This document shows, piece by piece, positions 10,272-47,400 of a stretch of 64,000 nt of DNA (the first letter of the stretch is position 1; each line of letters starts with the position of its first letter). The stretch is from Clostridiales bacterium (GTDB lineage Bacteria; Bacillota; Clostridia; Christensenellales; Borkfalkiaceae). Made by a program: the position numbers and the translations under genes. The DNA is taken from NCBI GenBank assembly GCA_022508285.1, contig JAFLVN010000005.1, positions 1 to 64,000 of the forward strand, written 5' to 3'. A model generated the notes under the pieces. That model had not been told where the DNA came from. It saw only the letters and a list, made by a program, of their open reading frames with translations, and made no database searches.

Positions 10272-10391
10272 AAACCGCAGAGATGCGAGCCAGACAAGGC
10301 GAACGAGTACCGACGCAGGGAGCGTACTATGCCGTACGTGACCAAGGCGGCACGGAGTTCAACACAGTATGGCGAAGCATATATGCGGTTT
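10272..10391 (+). repeat. Structured dispersed element, copy A
   Basis: 120 bp bounded by AAACCGCA and TGCGGTTT, which pair. Inside are helix P2 ATGC/GCAT, P2b GCCA/TGGC, conserved GACAAGGC, P3 GAAC/GTTC, hairpin P4 CGTAC/GTACG and conserved AACACAGTAT. It lies between the Gate-protein stop and the CoA-transferase start, reading opposite to both. The 13-mer GTAATTCTAAACC occurs twice at its left edge. Confidence 0.85.
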
Positions 10392-19127: not shown

Positions 19128-19250
19128 TCGGTTGCAGAGATGCGAGCAAGACAAGGCGCGCAAGCATTTTTGACGGGGAGTTTACTTATTGTAAATGACC
19201 CTAAAAAAGCGCAATCGCAACACAGTATTGCGAAGTATATATGTGACCGA
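19128..19250 (+). repeat. Structured dispersed element, copy C
   Basis: 123 bp. The outer helix TCGGTTGCA/TGTGACCGA shares almost no sequence with other copies yet still pairs. It has P2 ATGC/GTAT, P2b GCAA/TTGC, conserved GACAAGGC, P3 GCG/CGC, hairpin P4 TTTAC/GTAAA closed by GGG/CCC, and AACACAGTAT. It is in sense orientation in the leader of the ECF-S gene and ends 4-5 bp before its ribosome site. Confidence 0.85.
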
Positions 19251-24389: not shown

Positions 24390-24570
24390 TAAAACCGCAG
24401 AGATACGAGCAAGACAAGGCGCACGTGCGAGCTTGCGACGCTTTGTAGAAAATTTTTTAGGGTTAGTAAAAAATTTTCACAATGCATTTTGGAAGGAAGC
24501 GTACTTAGCGTACGTAACCTGAACAAAAGCGGAGTGCAACACAGTATTGCGAAGTATATATGCGGTTTTA
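24390..24570 (+). repeat. Structured dispersed element, copy D (extended)
   Basis: 181 bp with a 10-bp terminal helix TAAAACCGCA/TGCGGTTTTA. It has P2 ATAC/GTAT, P2b GCAA/TTGC, GACAAGGC, P3 GCAC/GTGC and P4 CGTAC/GTACG. An extra arm of about 60 bp with a 12-bp A/T hairpin (24447-24478) is inserted between P3 and P4. It lies antisense in the predicted 5' leader of nadB. Confidence 0.83.
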
Positions 24571-26132: not shown

Positions 26133-26789
26133 TTAAATATTGTATTTTGCCATTAGTTTTAACAACGCATTGAAATTCTCGTTCAAAATTTCGCCTTCGG
26201 CGGGGGTAAGCGAGCCCTTGACTTTCATTACGGTGAAAGTGTTTTTCAGTTTTTCGAGCTCCTGCCTGTCCGTTTTGCCGATATTTTTTTCAAGTAGCTT
26301 GCCTGTTACGGCTAAGGCGTGGTCAAGCCGCACGTTGTTGCGGGCAGTTGCGGTGCCCGGTGCGGGACGAGAAGGTTTTTGAGCCGCAGGAGCGGACTTG
26401 GCGGGCGAAAGGGTCTGAGCGGGCAGAGCGGGTGCGGCACATGCCGCAACCTGTGCGGGCAGGGCTGGCGACTTACGCTTTTTTTTACGTGAGGCAGCAC
26501 AGAGCAATCCGTAGCCGAAATATCCGCATATCCAGAATATACACGCTATAAACGCCGCCTGCTCCACCTCGTTTACAGTTAAAAACAGGGCGAAAGTTAC
26601 CGCCGTATACGCATATAAAAGGCAAAGGTACGGTCTTTTAGAGGATGAACGCACGGCTGGCAGACAGAGGCACAGCGTCAATGCAAGTATAAAAATTGCA
26701 ATAAACGAGCCCCAGACGAGCCAAACAAGCGAGTCGAAGGATGCTTTTGCCGCCAAAGCGGTGATGTTGCGGGCGAGAGTTTCAAACAT
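26133..26789 (-). CDS. Membrane protein of unknown function with Ala/Pro-rich linker
   Basis: 218 residues: three hydrophobic segments (about 20-45, 50-70, 75-98), a basic stretch SRKKKRKSP, an Ala/Pro-rich low-complexity linker (about 105-145), and a C-terminal helical domain (LDHALAVTGKLLEKNI, KLKNTFTVMKVKGSLTPAEG). No family recognised. It is convergent with the PRC-barrel gene, with 3 bp between stops. Confidence 0.6.
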   Translation of the reverse strand: MFETLARNITALAAKASFDSLVWLVWGSFIAIFILALTLCLCLPAVRSSSKRPYLCLLYAYTAVTFALFLTVNEVEQAAFIACIFWICGYFGYGLLCAASRKKKRKSPALPAQVAACAAPALPAQTLSPAKSAPAAQKPSRPAPGTATARNNVRLDHALAVTGKLLEKNIGKTDRQELEKLKNTFTVMKVKGSLTPAEGEILNENFNALLKLMAKYNI

Positions 26790-26812: not shown

Positions 26813-26848
26813 CAAAAAAATAAAGCGGAGATTCTGTCGAATTTCCGC
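26813..26848 (-). terminator. Terminator after tauE and repeat copy 1
   Basis: GCGGA-ATTC / GAAT-TCCGC stem with a TGTC loop and one mismatch (26825-26848), followed on the minus strand by TTTATTTTTTT. It closes the addB-addA-tauE direction. Confidence 0.8.
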
Positions 26849-26861
26849 AGATTATAAAATA

Positions 26862-26959
26862 TTCGCTCAAGTCGTGCAGTAGCGCGACTTGTAGCGAGGT
26901 TGTTTCGGTCGTAATTTTCTTAACGGGCGAAATAAATCCGCCCTTGAAAATTTCGGCAT
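26862..26959 (-). repeat. tauE-flanking structured repeat, copy 1
   Basis: 98 bp, matching 27794-27885 with a 52-bp identical block (26908-26959). It folds as one hairpin TCGCT-CAAGTCG/CGACTTG-AGCGA with a bulged base, and a second helix GTCG.AATTTTC/GAAAATT.CGGC topped by GGGCG/CGCCC. Located between the tauE stop and its terminator. Confidence 0.8.
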
Positions 26960-26983
26960 AAATTATTTATTAATTTTTTGTAG

Positions 26984-27784
26984 CTAATTCATTACAAAGA
27001 AGTTCAGTATAAGAAGTACTATGCCGAGGACGGTTAAAATTGCGCCCGTAACAATGCCAACCACCTTGCCGTTTACCTTATTTGCAAACAGCGACGAAAC
27101 TACCGCACCCAAAGTGGCTACAGGTGCGCAGATTGCAAGAACGTCCCACCGTTCAAGCAGGATATCCACTTCCGCCACGGCGTGCGCACCGAAGGCAACC
27201 AGTGCGGCTAAAGCCATTATAAAGGTGCTGGTTCCCACCGCTGTTCTTCGCTCCATGCCGAAGAATAAAGTAAAAACGAGCAGCATCATAAGTCCGCCGC
27301 CTGTGCCGACGTAACCTACTATAAGCCCTATGGCGAGCCCGAACAGCACAGAAAAAATTATTCCCTTTTTATCGAGTTTAGTGCCCTTGGGCACAAGGCG
27401 TTTACCTTGGGGGTCGGGCTGAATTAAAAAGCGTACGCCGATAAACACGCACAGCGCAAGCGAGAATGCGCTATTTATATGGTTGGGAATATAAAAAGCT
27501 ATTATCGTGCCGACAATGCACATGGTCAGCACGCAGACTATCATTATCCAACTGCGCTTTAAATCTATATTTTTATGCCGTATATATATCGCCGTGGAAA
27601 CGATAGACGCCAAAACGTCGGACGCGAGCGCTATCGCCACAGCCTGAAATTGCCCGCCGTCCACAGCGAACGTGGGGCAGAGCACTATTAATATTGGCAC
27701 CATAACTGCCGCTGCCGAGAGCCCTACGAGTCCCGTAGTTACTCCGGCACCCAATGCGGCTATTACATACCAGAAATATTCCAT
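26984..27784 (-). CDS. TauE/SafE family membrane permease
   Basis: 266 residues from ATG 27784, with AAAGGA 4 bp upstream; a TTG at 27802 is the alternative but falls in the repeat. About eight hydrophobic segments and the family's two short signatures, GVTTGLVGLSAAAVMVPIL near the N-terminus and GLIVGYVGTGGGLMMLLVFT in the middle. Members move sulfite, sulfoacetate or other small organic anions; the substrate is unknown. It is framed by two copies of a structured repeat and follows addA. Confidence 0.88.
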   Translation of the reverse strand: MEYFWYVIAALGAGVTTGLVGLSAAAVMVPILIVLCPTFAVDGGQFQAVAIALASDVLASIVSTAIYIRHKNIDLKRSWIMIVCVLTMCIVGTIIAFYIPNHINSAFSLALCVFIGVRFLIQPDPQGKRLVPKGTKLDKKGIIFSVLFGLAIGLIVGYVGTGGGLMMLLVFTLFFGMERRTAVGTSTFIMALAALVAFGAHAVAEVDILLERWDVLAICAPVATLGAVVSSLFANKVNGKVVGIVTGAILTVLGIVLLILNFFVMN

Positions 27785-27793
27785 AAAATCCTT

Positions 27794-27885
27794 TTCGCTC
27801 AAATTGCAAGCAATTTGCAGCGAGGTTGCTGTTGTCGTAATTTTCTTAACGGGCGAAATAAATCCGCCCTTGAAAATTTCGGCAT
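27794..27885 (-). repeat. tauE-flanking structured repeat, copy 2
   Basis: 92 bp. It is the same element as 26862-26959 but with the first hairpin changed to CAAATTG/CAATTTG and a 4-base loop, so pairing is kept while sequence changes. It fills the gap between the addA stop and the tauE ribosome site, 5 bp from the latter. Confidence 0.8.
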
Positions 27886-27893
27886 GATTCTTT

Positions 27894-30800
27894 TTAATTT
27901 AAATTAATTTGCGAGCGGGTGCGGATATTTATTATTGCCGCACCTATTTCCTTTTCGGGCACGTGCCAGATAATTGACACTGCCTTTTTGTAGAGTTCGA
28001 GCTGCTTTGAGTACGTTTCAAGGAGCTGCCCGTCCGTCTTTTTGGAGTACTTGTAGTCTATTATACGCACCCCGAAGTCCCCATGCGCTAAGAGGTCGAT
28101 TGCGCCCTGCACAAGGATATGGTCCTCAGCCACCGATTTGAGCACGTCGCACGCTTTAAGTCTGCATAAAAACTCCTGCTCACGGTAAAGCTCTGCGCCG
28201 TGAAGGTCGGCAAACACCGGCATATTGACTATTTCGCACAGCTCTTCGACATTCAAAAGCTGAGCTTGGGCTTGAGTTATTTTACCGCATTGCAAGAAGT
28301 TTGACAATTCTTTTTGGATACCGTCAAGCGATTTTACCGAAAAATCACAGAGTTCCAAAAATCTGTGGTACGCCGTGCCACGCTCCGCATCCGTTTCGCC
28401 ATCTCCGACAAACAGAGTGTGTTCGGCAAAATAGGGCTCGTCCTCGCGCATGCTCTTTAAAATAGCGGATGCAGAACTCTTTACGGGCAGCTCAACGCTG
28501 TCTGCGCGGGAATAGGGCTGCATGAAGCGTGCGGATATGGCTTTATACAGATTTTCGTCACGCTCGGCAAGATAGGTCACTTCTTCAGACTGTCTTTCTA
28601 TTTCACCCCTCTCGCACATGTCCTCGCAGGGGAACTTTTGCATGTCGAAGAGCTGAGAATACCGCTTTGCCGCAAGCGCACCCGCACGGCTGTATTCCTC
28701 TCTTTCCTCGGCTAAGATATGCAGTTTGCACATCGCTCGGGTGCACGCCACGTAAAAGAGATTGAGCTCGTTTTTAAGCTCCTCCCTGTCCGCACGCATT
28801 TTTACAAGCTTGCGCAAAATTGTGGGATATACGAGCATATTTTCGGGGTCGTAACACTTAGGCGCAAAGCCGTACTTTTCGTCGAAGGGCAGCTCGGAAT
28901 AGTCCATGCCCTTGAAAGTGCGGCAGATATCGGCAATTATGACCACGGGAAACTCCAACCCCTTTGCTGCGTGCATGGTCATAATTTTAATACTGTCGGA
29001 GGGCGCAGCCGTCGGCGCTTTTATATCGTATCCGCCCGATTTTATCTTTTCGAGAAAAGCCGAAAGGGTTAGCGCAGGTCCTTCGGCGGCAAGCTTTAAC
29101 ACGTTTTTAAGCTTTTCACCGCCGCCTGCGGAGTACGCTGCCTCCAGTCCGCTCTCCGCAAGGATATAATCTATGAGCTCGCCCGCAGACATAATTTCAG
29201 ACAAATCCCGCAACGTTTGCACCTTTTGCGAGAATGCGTTGAGCTTTTCGGCTATAAAACCTCTGCCCGCTTCCATATAAAGTTTAAAACACTGTCTGAA
29301 AGATATGCGCCCTTCTTTTTTAAAGGCTATGCGGATTGCCGCAAGCTCGTCTTCTGTAAATCCGCCCAAGGGGGAAAGCATTGCCGAAACGAGCGGAATA
29401 TCCTGCTCGGCGTTGTCTATGAGAGAGAGAATATCGAGCATCTGCCTTACCTCGGGCAGAGCGCAGATATTGCCCTCCTGCGCTCCCGAAACGGAGTAGC
29501 CCGCATCTTTGAGCGCACGGATTATGCCCTCGGCAGAGCCGCCCTTGTTTTTGCGGGTAAGTATGCAGATATCGCCGGGCTGGGTGTCGACGTATTCGCC
29601 CTTTTTGAGGTCGAAGTGCTTTGAATTTAACTCCCTCTCCACAAGCTGAAGTACGGCAAGTCCCTCCCGGGTGTGCGGGGCGTTGCGTCCGTCTTCCATT
29701 ACGGAATACACTCCCCGCTCCTCGGCTATCTTTTCATCTTTGCCGAATATATGTATTTCCGCCAAGCCGCAATCCTTAGGATACTTAGCTTCCGCAGTCA
29801 TTTTATGTCCTGCCGCATAGTCAAAGCCGCAGGCACGCTCCGTCATCACTTCGGAGAACATGGCGTTTACAAACATCAACACTTCTGCACAGCTTCTGAA
29901 ATTCCCCGAAAGCTTTAAAGCGGTTTGCGCTCCGCTCTCGAAATTTTTGAATTTATCGGAGAAGAATACCGACTTGCTGCCCCTGAAGCCGTAGATTGCC
30001 TGCTTGACGTCGCCGACGAGGAACACCTCCCGTCCGATTGCCGAAATAATCTCTTCCTGCACGGGGTTTACGTCCTGATATTCGTCAACGAATACGTAGC
30101 TGTATTTGGAATTTATCTCTTTTTTTAAATTTTCGTCCTGCAAAAGTTGCAGTGTCATGTGCTCCAAATCGTTGTAGTCAAGCTTATTCTCATCACGTTT
30201 GATTGCGGTATATTCCGTATCGAATTCCAAAAGCAGAGCCGAAAACGCAACGGCGGTTTTGCCGCTTTCCAAAAACAGTCTGCGCTCGGTTTGCTCGTCT
30301 GAAATACCGTCACGCACTGCGCCGAATCTCTTGGAAATATCGGCTTTGAATTCCTTGAATATCTCGCCCGCCTCTTTATCCTCATCGGGGTCTCGGGGCT
30401 TTGCCGTGACGGTAAAGGGAATTGCGGGTGCAAACACCCCGCCCGCCTTTGCCTCTTTAAGGGCTGCACGCATTTCGGCGAAAATCTTAGCGTACTTTTC
30501 GGCATTCTTCGTCCGGGGGAAGGCGGCTTCGAACTCGTCTACTTCCTCCTCCATAGCCGCATATTTTCCGGCAAAGAACTCAGAAAGCTCCGCACATATT
30601 GCCGAAAACCCCTCGTCGGTGTAGAGGTTTGCGCAAGTTTCAAGCATATTGCGGTAGTGCGCTACGTTACGCACGGAAGAGTAGCTTTCAAGCACAAGCC
30701 GCCGTAAGGCGTTGTCGCTCCGCTTCTTTGAAAAACGCTTTAAAAGGTGGATAAAATCGCTATCCTCTTGCTCGTACCGCCGCTCAAAAACATTGTCAAG

Positions 30801-31214
30801 GGCACGGGATTTTAAGTCTTTTGCAAGGGCGTCCTCGTCCGACATAATGTCGAACCCGCCGTCTATATTAAGTTGAAAAAAGTATGTACGCAAAAGGCGT
30901 GAACAGAATGAGTGTATTGTGGAGATATTTGCCGAAGGAATTTTGGAAATCTGCGCCTTTATGTGCGCAATTTTACTGCCGTCGGCGTTTTCCACCTTTT
31001 TTATGAGGGCGGTGCGCAATTTCTCCTTCATCTGCGCCGCCGCTTTTTTGGTAAAGGTTACGGCGAGTACTTCGTCGATATCCGCCCCTGCCTCTATCGC
31101 ACGGGTGAGCTTTTCTATCATTACGAAGGTCTTGCCGCTGCCCGCCGAGGCGGACACTATAACTTTACCGACGCTTTTGACAGCTTGGGACTGTTCTTTG
31201 GTTAAATCAGCCAT
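27894..31214 (-). CDS. addA: ATP-dependent helicase/nuclease AddA
   Basis: 1106 residues. UvrD-like helicase motifs run in order: Walker A SASAGSGKT (about 18-26), Walker B FVDEYQDVNPVQEE, KQAIYGFRG, and motif VI VACTRAMCKLHIL. The C-terminal RecB-type nuclease has DHILVQGAIDLLAH and VRIIDYKYSKK (metal-binding Asp, Asp and Lys). With AddB it processes double-strand breaks for recombination. It overlaps addB by 8 bp. Confidence 0.96.
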   Translation of the reverse strand: MADLTKEQSQAVKSVGKVIVSASAGSGKTFVMIEKLTRAIEAGADIDEVLAVTFTKKAAAQMKEKLRTALIKKVENADGSKIAHIKAQISKIPSANISTIHSFCSRLLRTYFFQLNIDGGFDIMSDEDALAKDLKSRALDNVFERRYEQEDSDFIHLLKRFSKKRSDNALRRLVLESYSSVRNVAHYRNMLETCANLYTDEGFSAICAELSEFFAGKYAAMEEEVDEFEAAFPRTKNAEKYAKIFAEMRAALKEAKAGGVFAPAIPFTVTAKPRDPDEDKEAGEIFKEFKADISKRFGAVRDGISDEQTERRLFLESGKTAVAFSALLLEFDTEYTAIKRDENKLDYNDLEHMTLQLLQDENLKKEINSKYSYVFVDEYQDVNPVQEEIISAIGREVFLVGDVKQAIYGFRGSKSVFFSDKFKNFESGAQTALKLSGNFRSCAEVLMFVNAMFSEVMTERACGFDYAAGHKMTAEAKYPKDCGLAEIHIFGKDEKIAEERGVYSVMEDGRNAPHTREGLAVLQLVERELNSKHFDLKKGEYVDTQPGDICILTRKNKGGSAEGIIRALKDAGYSVSGAQEGNICALPEVRQMLDILSLIDNAEQDIPLVSAMLSPLGGFTEDELAAIRIAFKKEGRISFRQCFKLYMEAGRGFIAEKLNAFSQKVQTLRDLSEIMSAGELIDYILAESGLEAAYSAGGGEKLKNVLKLAAEGPALTLSAFLEKIKSGGYDIKAPTAAPSDSIKIMTMHAAKGLEFPVVIIADICRTFKGMDYSELPFDEKYGFAPKCYDPENMLVYPTILRKLVKMRADREELKNELNLFYVACTRAMCKLHILAEEREEYSRAGALAAKRYSQLFDMQKFPCEDMCERGEIERQSEEVTYLAERDENLYKAISARFMQPYSRADSVELPVKSSASAILKSMREDEPYFAEHTLFVGDGETDAERGTAYHRFLELCDFSVKSLDGIQKELSNFLQCGKITQAQAQLLNVEELCEIVNMPVFADLHGAELYREQEFLCRLKACDVLKSVAEDHILVQGAIDLLAHGDFGVRIIDYKYSKKTDGQLLETYSKQLELYKKAVSIIWHVPEKEIGAAIINIRTRSQINLN

Positions 31215-42837: not shown

Positions 42838-42958
42838 CAACCGCAGAGAAGCGAGCAAGACAAGGCGAACGAGTACCGTCCGCAGGGAGTGTACTTAATG
42901 GTACACGACCAAGGCGGCACGGAGTTCAACGCAGTATTGTGACGCTTATATGCGGTTG
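42838..42958 (+). repeat. Structured dispersed element, copy E
   Basis: 121 bp. P1 CAACCGCA/TGCGGTTG, P2 AAGC/GCTT, P2b GCAA/TTGT, GACAAGGC, P3 GAAC/GTTC, P4 GTGTAC/GTACAC. It lies between convergent genes. TTTAATGCAA occurs twice at its left edge. Confidence 0.87.
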
Positions 42959-47280: not shown

Positions 47281-47400
47281 CAACCGCAGAGAAGCAAGCA
47301 AGACAAGGCGAACGAGTACCACCGCAGGGAGCGTACTATGGCGTACGTGACCAAGGCGGCACGGAGTTCAACACAGTATTGCGCCGCTTATATGCGGTTG
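47281..47400 (+). repeat. Structured dispersed element, copy F
   Basis: 120 bp. P1 CAACCGCA/TGCGGTTG, P2 AAGC/GCTT, P2b GCAA/TTGC, GACAAGGC, P3 GAAC/GTTC, P4 CGTAC/GTACG, AACACAGTAT. It ends 8 bp from the hydA stop codon, between convergent genes. Confidence 0.88.

Follow-up and report, generated by a model that had tools for sequence, protein, structure and literature searches.

A tauE gene (PF01925, TauE/SafE; Pfam E 9e-33), at positions 26984 to 27784 of the window, the 64,000-nucleotide stretch of Clostridiales DNA analysed here, is flanked on both sides by copies of a structured repeat element. All features of this locus are on the minus strand. The upstream neighbour is an addA-type helicase-nuclease gene with UvrD-helicase and PDDEXK domains (27894 to 31214), assigned with the help of synteny; on the other side is orf218 (26133 to 26789), which tblastn identified as the gene directly following addA in relatives. 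Copy E1 (27794 to 27885, 92 nt), detected by BLAST and by our covariance model R1 (98.0 bits), occupies the addA-tauE spacer, and one end of it abuts AAGGA, the ribosome-binding site of tauE. Copy E2 (26862 to 26959, 98 nt; R1 match 110.3 bits) lies between tauE and a terminator-like hairpin with a T tract (26814 to 26848), which was read from the sequence and was not called by a simple terminator scan. Both positions agree with an earlier note on this DNA; the note's attribution of the terminator to tauE itself is doubtful, because the same place holds the addA terminator in relatives.

The two copies have in common an identical block of 52 bp, GTCGTAATTTTCTTAACGGGCGAAATAAATCCGCCCTTGAAAATTTCGGCAT (plus strand). 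Each folds far better than dinucleotide-shuffled sequences (z -3.5 for E1 and -6.7 for E2). Hairpin 1 of E1 (27836 to 27881), supported by covariation and by RNAalifold, consists of two stems with an asymmetric internal loop, AA opposite GTTAA, between them, and hairpin 1 of E2 (26910 to 26955) is identical. Hairpin 2 of E1 (27795 to 27823) reads TCGCT-G-CAAATTG-CTTG-CAATTTG-AGCGA and is supported by shuffle folding, covariation and RNAalifold. Its counterpart in E2 (26863 to 26897; shuffle folding and covariation) reads TCGCT-A-CAAGTCG...CGACTTG-AGCGA and is of a different stem class. Thus, as the note had described, the stem differs between the copies, CAAATTG/CAATTTG in E1 and CAAGTCG/CGACTTG in E2, and in both it still pairs within TCGCT/AGCGA.

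When other copies are considered, the element has a left edge rich in AT, after which the conserved linker AGCAACCTC joins hairpin 1 to hairpin 2, which ends in GCGAA or GTGAA. In hairpin 1 two stems flank an asymmetric internal loop, A or AA facing GTTAA, and the apical loop is conserved. Several stem classes occur in hairpin 2. The stems differ as whole blocks, and the loops and linker are conserved. Three copies (L009, L006, L024) have a third small hairpin between the two. An alignment of sixteen copies from the window's own genome had 97.5% of cells paired in the two-hairpin structure, with 16 of 30 pairs changed on both sides and a covariation of 0.456, as against 0.140 for shuffled alignments and at most 0.088 for slid partners. 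In a larger alignment of 118 copies from 32 genomes, fitted to the model, double changes were found in 26 of the 30 pairs (732 cells), and covariation rose to 0.603 (0.173 shuffled, at most 0.08 slid). From the alignment of sixteen copies alone, RNAalifold returned the same helices.

The window's own genome (1.47 Mb in 97 contigs) was searched for further copies. BLAST with E1 detected some 16 copies, with E values from 1.6e-51 down to about 1e-6, and R1 detected 25 copies at E<1e-3. Most are 92 to 120 nt long and non-coding, and most lie in spacers, as is usual for a small interspersed repeat. A genome-wide search was the check that the earlier note had proposed, two copies only and no conserved structure being the outcome that would indicate a local duplication; the many copies and their conserved structure therefore point away from it. 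In one own-genome copy (C12, about 151742 to 151842; L007/L021/L055), hairpin 1 is broken by another hairpin-forming sequence of about 110 nt that contains CAAAACAGCACAGTGCGCTGTTTTG, and in another species (L194) a sequence similar to this insert begins just after a partial element copy. A second dispersed hairpin, for example GAAAAGTTAGCGCGATAGCTCGCGCGTTAAAACTTTTCAAGGC, was seen upstream of several element copies (L209, L211, L212, L095, L092); its layout of stem, A, stem, loop, GTTAA and stem is that of hairpin 1, and it may represent a related family. The window also has an unrelated repeat family (GCAGAGATGCGAGCAAGACAAGGCG...) at 10273 to 10390, 19134 to 19243, 24397 to 24562, 42840 to 42957 and 47282 to 47399, members of which adjoin the two-hairpin element at two other sites of the genome (L018, L014).

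The element was found in 44 of 93 species of the genus, at 1 to 29 copies each (E<=1e-6), and in none of the other genera among 297 genomes from 125 genera of the order. A pattern scan for hairpin 1 across 84,980 GTDB species matched 15 stretches, all but one from uncultured Clostridia or Clostridiales MAGs. The exception (L138), with an element copy near the contig end, is labelled uncultured Alphaproteobacteria and is probably a misbinned contig of the element's genus. All hairpin 1 matches in public genomes carry hairpin 2 adjacent, which argues against an autonomous form in which the hairpins would enclose a gene. The pattern had no match in IMG/VR, and carriage by phage was rejected on this ground. 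Rfam gave nothing relevant at gathering or permissive thresholds, and nothing relevant was found in the literature searched for an earlier description.

The locations of the copies relative to genes were then tabulated for 98 distinct spacers, in 87 of which the flanking genes are codirectional. These 87 comprise 54 sense and 33 antisense copies (p 0.03); sense copies exceed antisense 17:4 in the window's genome (p 0.007) and 37:29, not significant, elsewhere. The end of the element that abuts genes is its 3' end. Sense copies have this end 5 to 28 nt ahead of a start codon in 35 of 54 spacers, and antisense copies lie within 11 nt of a stop codon in 23 of 33; individual distances are approximate, because the gene calls came from a simple codon-usage script. 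The suggestion that the element marks the 3' ends of genes does not hold, since most sense copies immediately precede a start codon, and antisense ones immediately follow a stop. An intrinsic terminator is a G+C-rich hairpin followed by a run of T. The simple terminator scan made no call at E1 or E2, and in most sense copies a ribosome-binding site follows hairpin 2; we therefore rejected the element as an intrinsic terminator. In the window's genome, the genes that follow sense copies include, by names read from their translations, tauE, ddl, typA, clpX, ffh, def and rsmI as well as secE, tsf, proS, speE, rnfC, glmS and rpoB, which have no common function.

Comparison of related genomes revealed considerable turnover. 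At one locus present in both, G076 and G096 show about 92% identity. The two flanks of G076 copies were joined and looked for in G096, where eight copies (L199, L200, L202, L207, L208, L210, L211, L212) proved to be missing at the corresponding junctions. At a further junction (L198) G096 has an apparent remnant of hairpin 2, a possible scar, and the copy in the guaA region (L201) is common to both genomes. The rpsL-rpsG spacer, extracted in full from thirteen species, has the element before rpsG, after rpsL, inverted, inside or in tandem, depending on the species, while the background sequence is conserved. In G006 there are near-identical tandem copies before rpsG with a period of 114, and in G097 and G101 tandem copies lie on both sides of rpsL. 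Of 98 copies, 30 had their nearest neighbour within their own genome, as against 8.8 expected; in the window's genome this was so for 23 of 24. Thus the element is mobile: its presence, position, orientation and tandem number differ in orthologous spacers, and copies cluster by genome. The insertion before rpsG, common to G006, G017, G014, G103 and G100, looks old, and old common insertions of this kind would also fit a useful element. The rpsL-rpsG spacers in addition hold a conserved, apparently structured sequence, CCTACTT..TCGG...CCGATAAAAGTAGGCAGTATTC...GAGAAGGTTTGC...GCAATAGCTTATTTAAGG...CCCTTAAA (L145, minus strand; also L148, L089, L062 and L094), kept in the species compared and with no match in Rfam, which may be an S7-type leader RNA.

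The history of the tauE locus was reconstructed by the same kind of comparison. PF01925 is present in only 3 of 61 sampled genomes of the genus. In nine relatives addA is followed in the same direction by orf218 after a spacer of 73 to 168 bp with neither tauE nor element; several of these spacers hold a terminator hairpin and a promoter-like TATAAT. In four other relatives addA and orf218 are convergent. Here, E1, tauE and E2 occupy the gap between the addA stop codon and the terminator-like hairpin. Because addA in relatives runs straight into its terminator and then the following gene, tauE here is an insertion specific to this lineage, placed ahead of the addA terminator. The note's proposal that tauE was inserted is accordingly upheld. 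Its expectation of relatives with addA, a single copy and no tauE was correct as to tauE; the single copy was absent there. In the best explanation, which taken as a whole we consider probable, the elements arrived with tauE or later. The tauE of G048, 58% identical, is at another locus with no elements beside it. In a different species (L129, 1465 to 3597, plus strand) one protein of 710 aa combines TauE and an acyltransferase domain in a fusion (PF01925 plus PF01553).

The hairpin 1 sequences of E1 and E2 are identical and are each other's best match, as expected of a simple local duplication around tauE; hairpin 2 of E1, however, is closest to that of the copy before rpoB, and hairpin 2 of E2 to that of the copy before ddl. 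E1 and E2 are therefore mosaics. With these differing hairpin 2 classes and with 25 copies in the genome, a local duplication is refuted as the origin of the repeat and is extremely improbable here, although local conversion of hairpin 1 could still have taken place. The mosaic sequences would fit recombination or gene conversion, which may or may not have caused the insertion of tauE: the gene may have come in through recombination of elements with each other, or a pair of insertions may have been homogenised afterwards. Hairpin 1 of E1 and E2 is also 98% identical to that of a copy ahead of rpsG in G005. The addA genes of G005 and of this genome share just 65% identity, and the hairpin match suggests that copies were exchanged between species or that constraint is strong. 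In the order addA-E1-tauE-E2 every part has one orientation, as would be seen if tauE plus E2 had been inserted at E1 as a cassette at a preceding integron-like site. We regard such a cassette as very unlikely: other element pairs flank core genes (rpsL and the guaA region), most copies are single, and a search of 25 genomes for the integron integrase TIGR02249 gave nothing above the cut-off.

The strand on which the fold is maintained was assessed next. If the element were selected as part of a host mRNA, G.U pairs in the transcript would appear as A.C on the element strand of antisense copies. Among distinct copies G.U exceeded A.C on the element strand by 79 to 14 with one near-fixed G.U column excluded, and by 25 to 1 in antisense copies with the same column excluded; dropping two more recurrent G.U columns left 38:14 overall and 6:1, not significant, in antisense copies, and the G.U counts may be inflated by the model search in sense orientation and by inherited G.U columns. 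Since G.U is far in excess of A.C on the strand of the element itself, antisense insertions included, the fold seems to be kept for propagation. These counts speak for selection that acts on this strand and hence during propagation, although the model had been built in the same orientation.

These data bear on whether the element is instead a cis-acting RNA leader, either a protein- or ligand-binding structure or an intercistronic RNase processing site, selected to control the downstream gene. The position of 35 of 54 sense copies just before a start codon, the recurrence of ribosomal and core operons (rpsG, rplN, rplK, tsf, rpoB, clpX) and the strong covariation would all be expected of a leader, and the 17:4 sense bias in this genome could mean a role in mRNA. 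Nevertheless, we consider a leader distinctly unlikely, as the downstream genes are unrelated in function, orthologous spacers of relatives lack the element, 33 of 87 codirectional copies are antisense with G.U still kept on the untranscribed strand, and there is no match to an Rfam family. A putative effect of the element on operon mRNA is nonetheless possible.

Candidate mobilising functions were sought in the same genomes. Hairpins, a structure selected on one strand, tandem clusters and the lack of a detected target duplication are all reminiscent of REPIN-like or IS200/IS605-derived elements (PMC3116915), and the element might be one of these, moved now or recently by a Y1 transposase. 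However, Y1 and element show no association in the genus (Fisher p 0.5), and Y1 is missing from six of the twelve high-copy genomes (G046, G016, G002, G096, G054, G021), including the one with the highest copy number (G046, 29 copies). The only Y1 match in the window's own genome (L031; C6, 9966 to 10214, minus strand) is a truncated IS200-type remnant with a stop codon and no element beside it, and the two hairpins are unlike and do not form an inverted pair. Y1 was therefore rejected as the element's partner, and movement by Y1 is an unlikely reading. Reverse transcriptase was likewise rejected because carriage of the element does not track it: by hand count, the element is present in 16 of 30 genomes with a reverse transcriptase and in 28 of the 63 others, and most high-copy genomes are without one. 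MITEs are marked by terminal inverted repeats and by duplicated target sites. The ends of the element, ACGCCGAAA and GCGAA, are not inverted copies of each other; the left and right AT-rich flanks pair no better as a closing stem than shuffled pairs; and a flank permutation scan gave no clear signal of a target-site duplication, the empty sites being too diverged for a stricter test.

We conclude that the element probably constitutes a non-autonomous mobile family of small interspersed repeats, confined to one genus and settling in short operon spacers. It would spread within and between genomes of the genus, mobilised in trans, into short spacers between operon genes, which either are preferred at insertion or allow preferential survival where the next ribosome-binding site stays usable. 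There it would be tolerated, and neutral in the mRNA, because it carries no terminator and leaves the next ribosome-binding site intact. The machinery probably recognises a folded single strand, ssDNA or RNA, of the element's own orientation, in which stems would be free to change if pairing is kept and loops would not; recombination would reshuffle the modules and give tandem copies. The lack of association with Y1 or reverse transcriptase, the lack of terminal inverted repeats and of a clear target-duplication signal, and the sense bias in this genome count against this explanation. A bolder version, that the repeat propagates as a folded single strand recognised by its loops, with stems freely exchanged, and is moved by neither Y1 nor reverse transcriptase, is a speculation that we rate as unlikely; if true, the element would in effect be a new class of hairpin-borne mobile element. 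The locus also illustrates that a structure resembling a leader, placed immediately ahead of a ribosome-binding site, need not regulate the gene behind it and can instead be a mobile repeat.

Several known systems resemble the element in part. ERIC, NEMIS/Correia and RUP elements are also short structured intergenic repeats inserted in transcribed regions, and an influence of ERIC and Correia elements on mRNA cleavage has been reported (as cited in PMC3049150); the present element differs in having no terminal inverted repeats and no clear target-duplication signal in the flank scan. Integron attC cassettes differ in that the 25 genomes searched have no integron integrase above cut-off. REPINs and REP sequences with RAYT form hairpins, show compensatory changes, occur in tandem clusters and are tied to Y1 transposases (PMC3116915). 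Our element likewise is non-autonomous and hairpin-forming, with within-genome families, compensatory changes and tandem clusters; in contrast, REPINs are inverted pairs of one palindrome and are tied to a neighbouring Y1 (RAYT), whereas the two hairpins here differ in structure and sequence and show no association with Y1. The BOX elements of Streptococcus pneumoniae are small, modular, structured, lineage-restricted repeats of intergenic and operon regions whose internal modules vary; their transcripts are predicted to fold, and an effect on co-transcribed genes is predicted as well (PMC3049150). The element is also small, modular, structured, dispersed and lineage-restricted, but its two hairpins differ from each other and are sometimes accompanied by a third, the boxA-B-C order is absent, and the host lineage is another one. 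With its dozens of aligned copies, swapped stems, fixed loops, either orientation and matched empty and filled sites, it offers an unusually clean natural experiment, in which it becomes testable what moves small interspersed repeats and whether the fold serves movement or a role in host mRNA. The best reading, BOX being compared by description, is that the element represents a new family of the BOX/REPIN class of small interspersed repeats.
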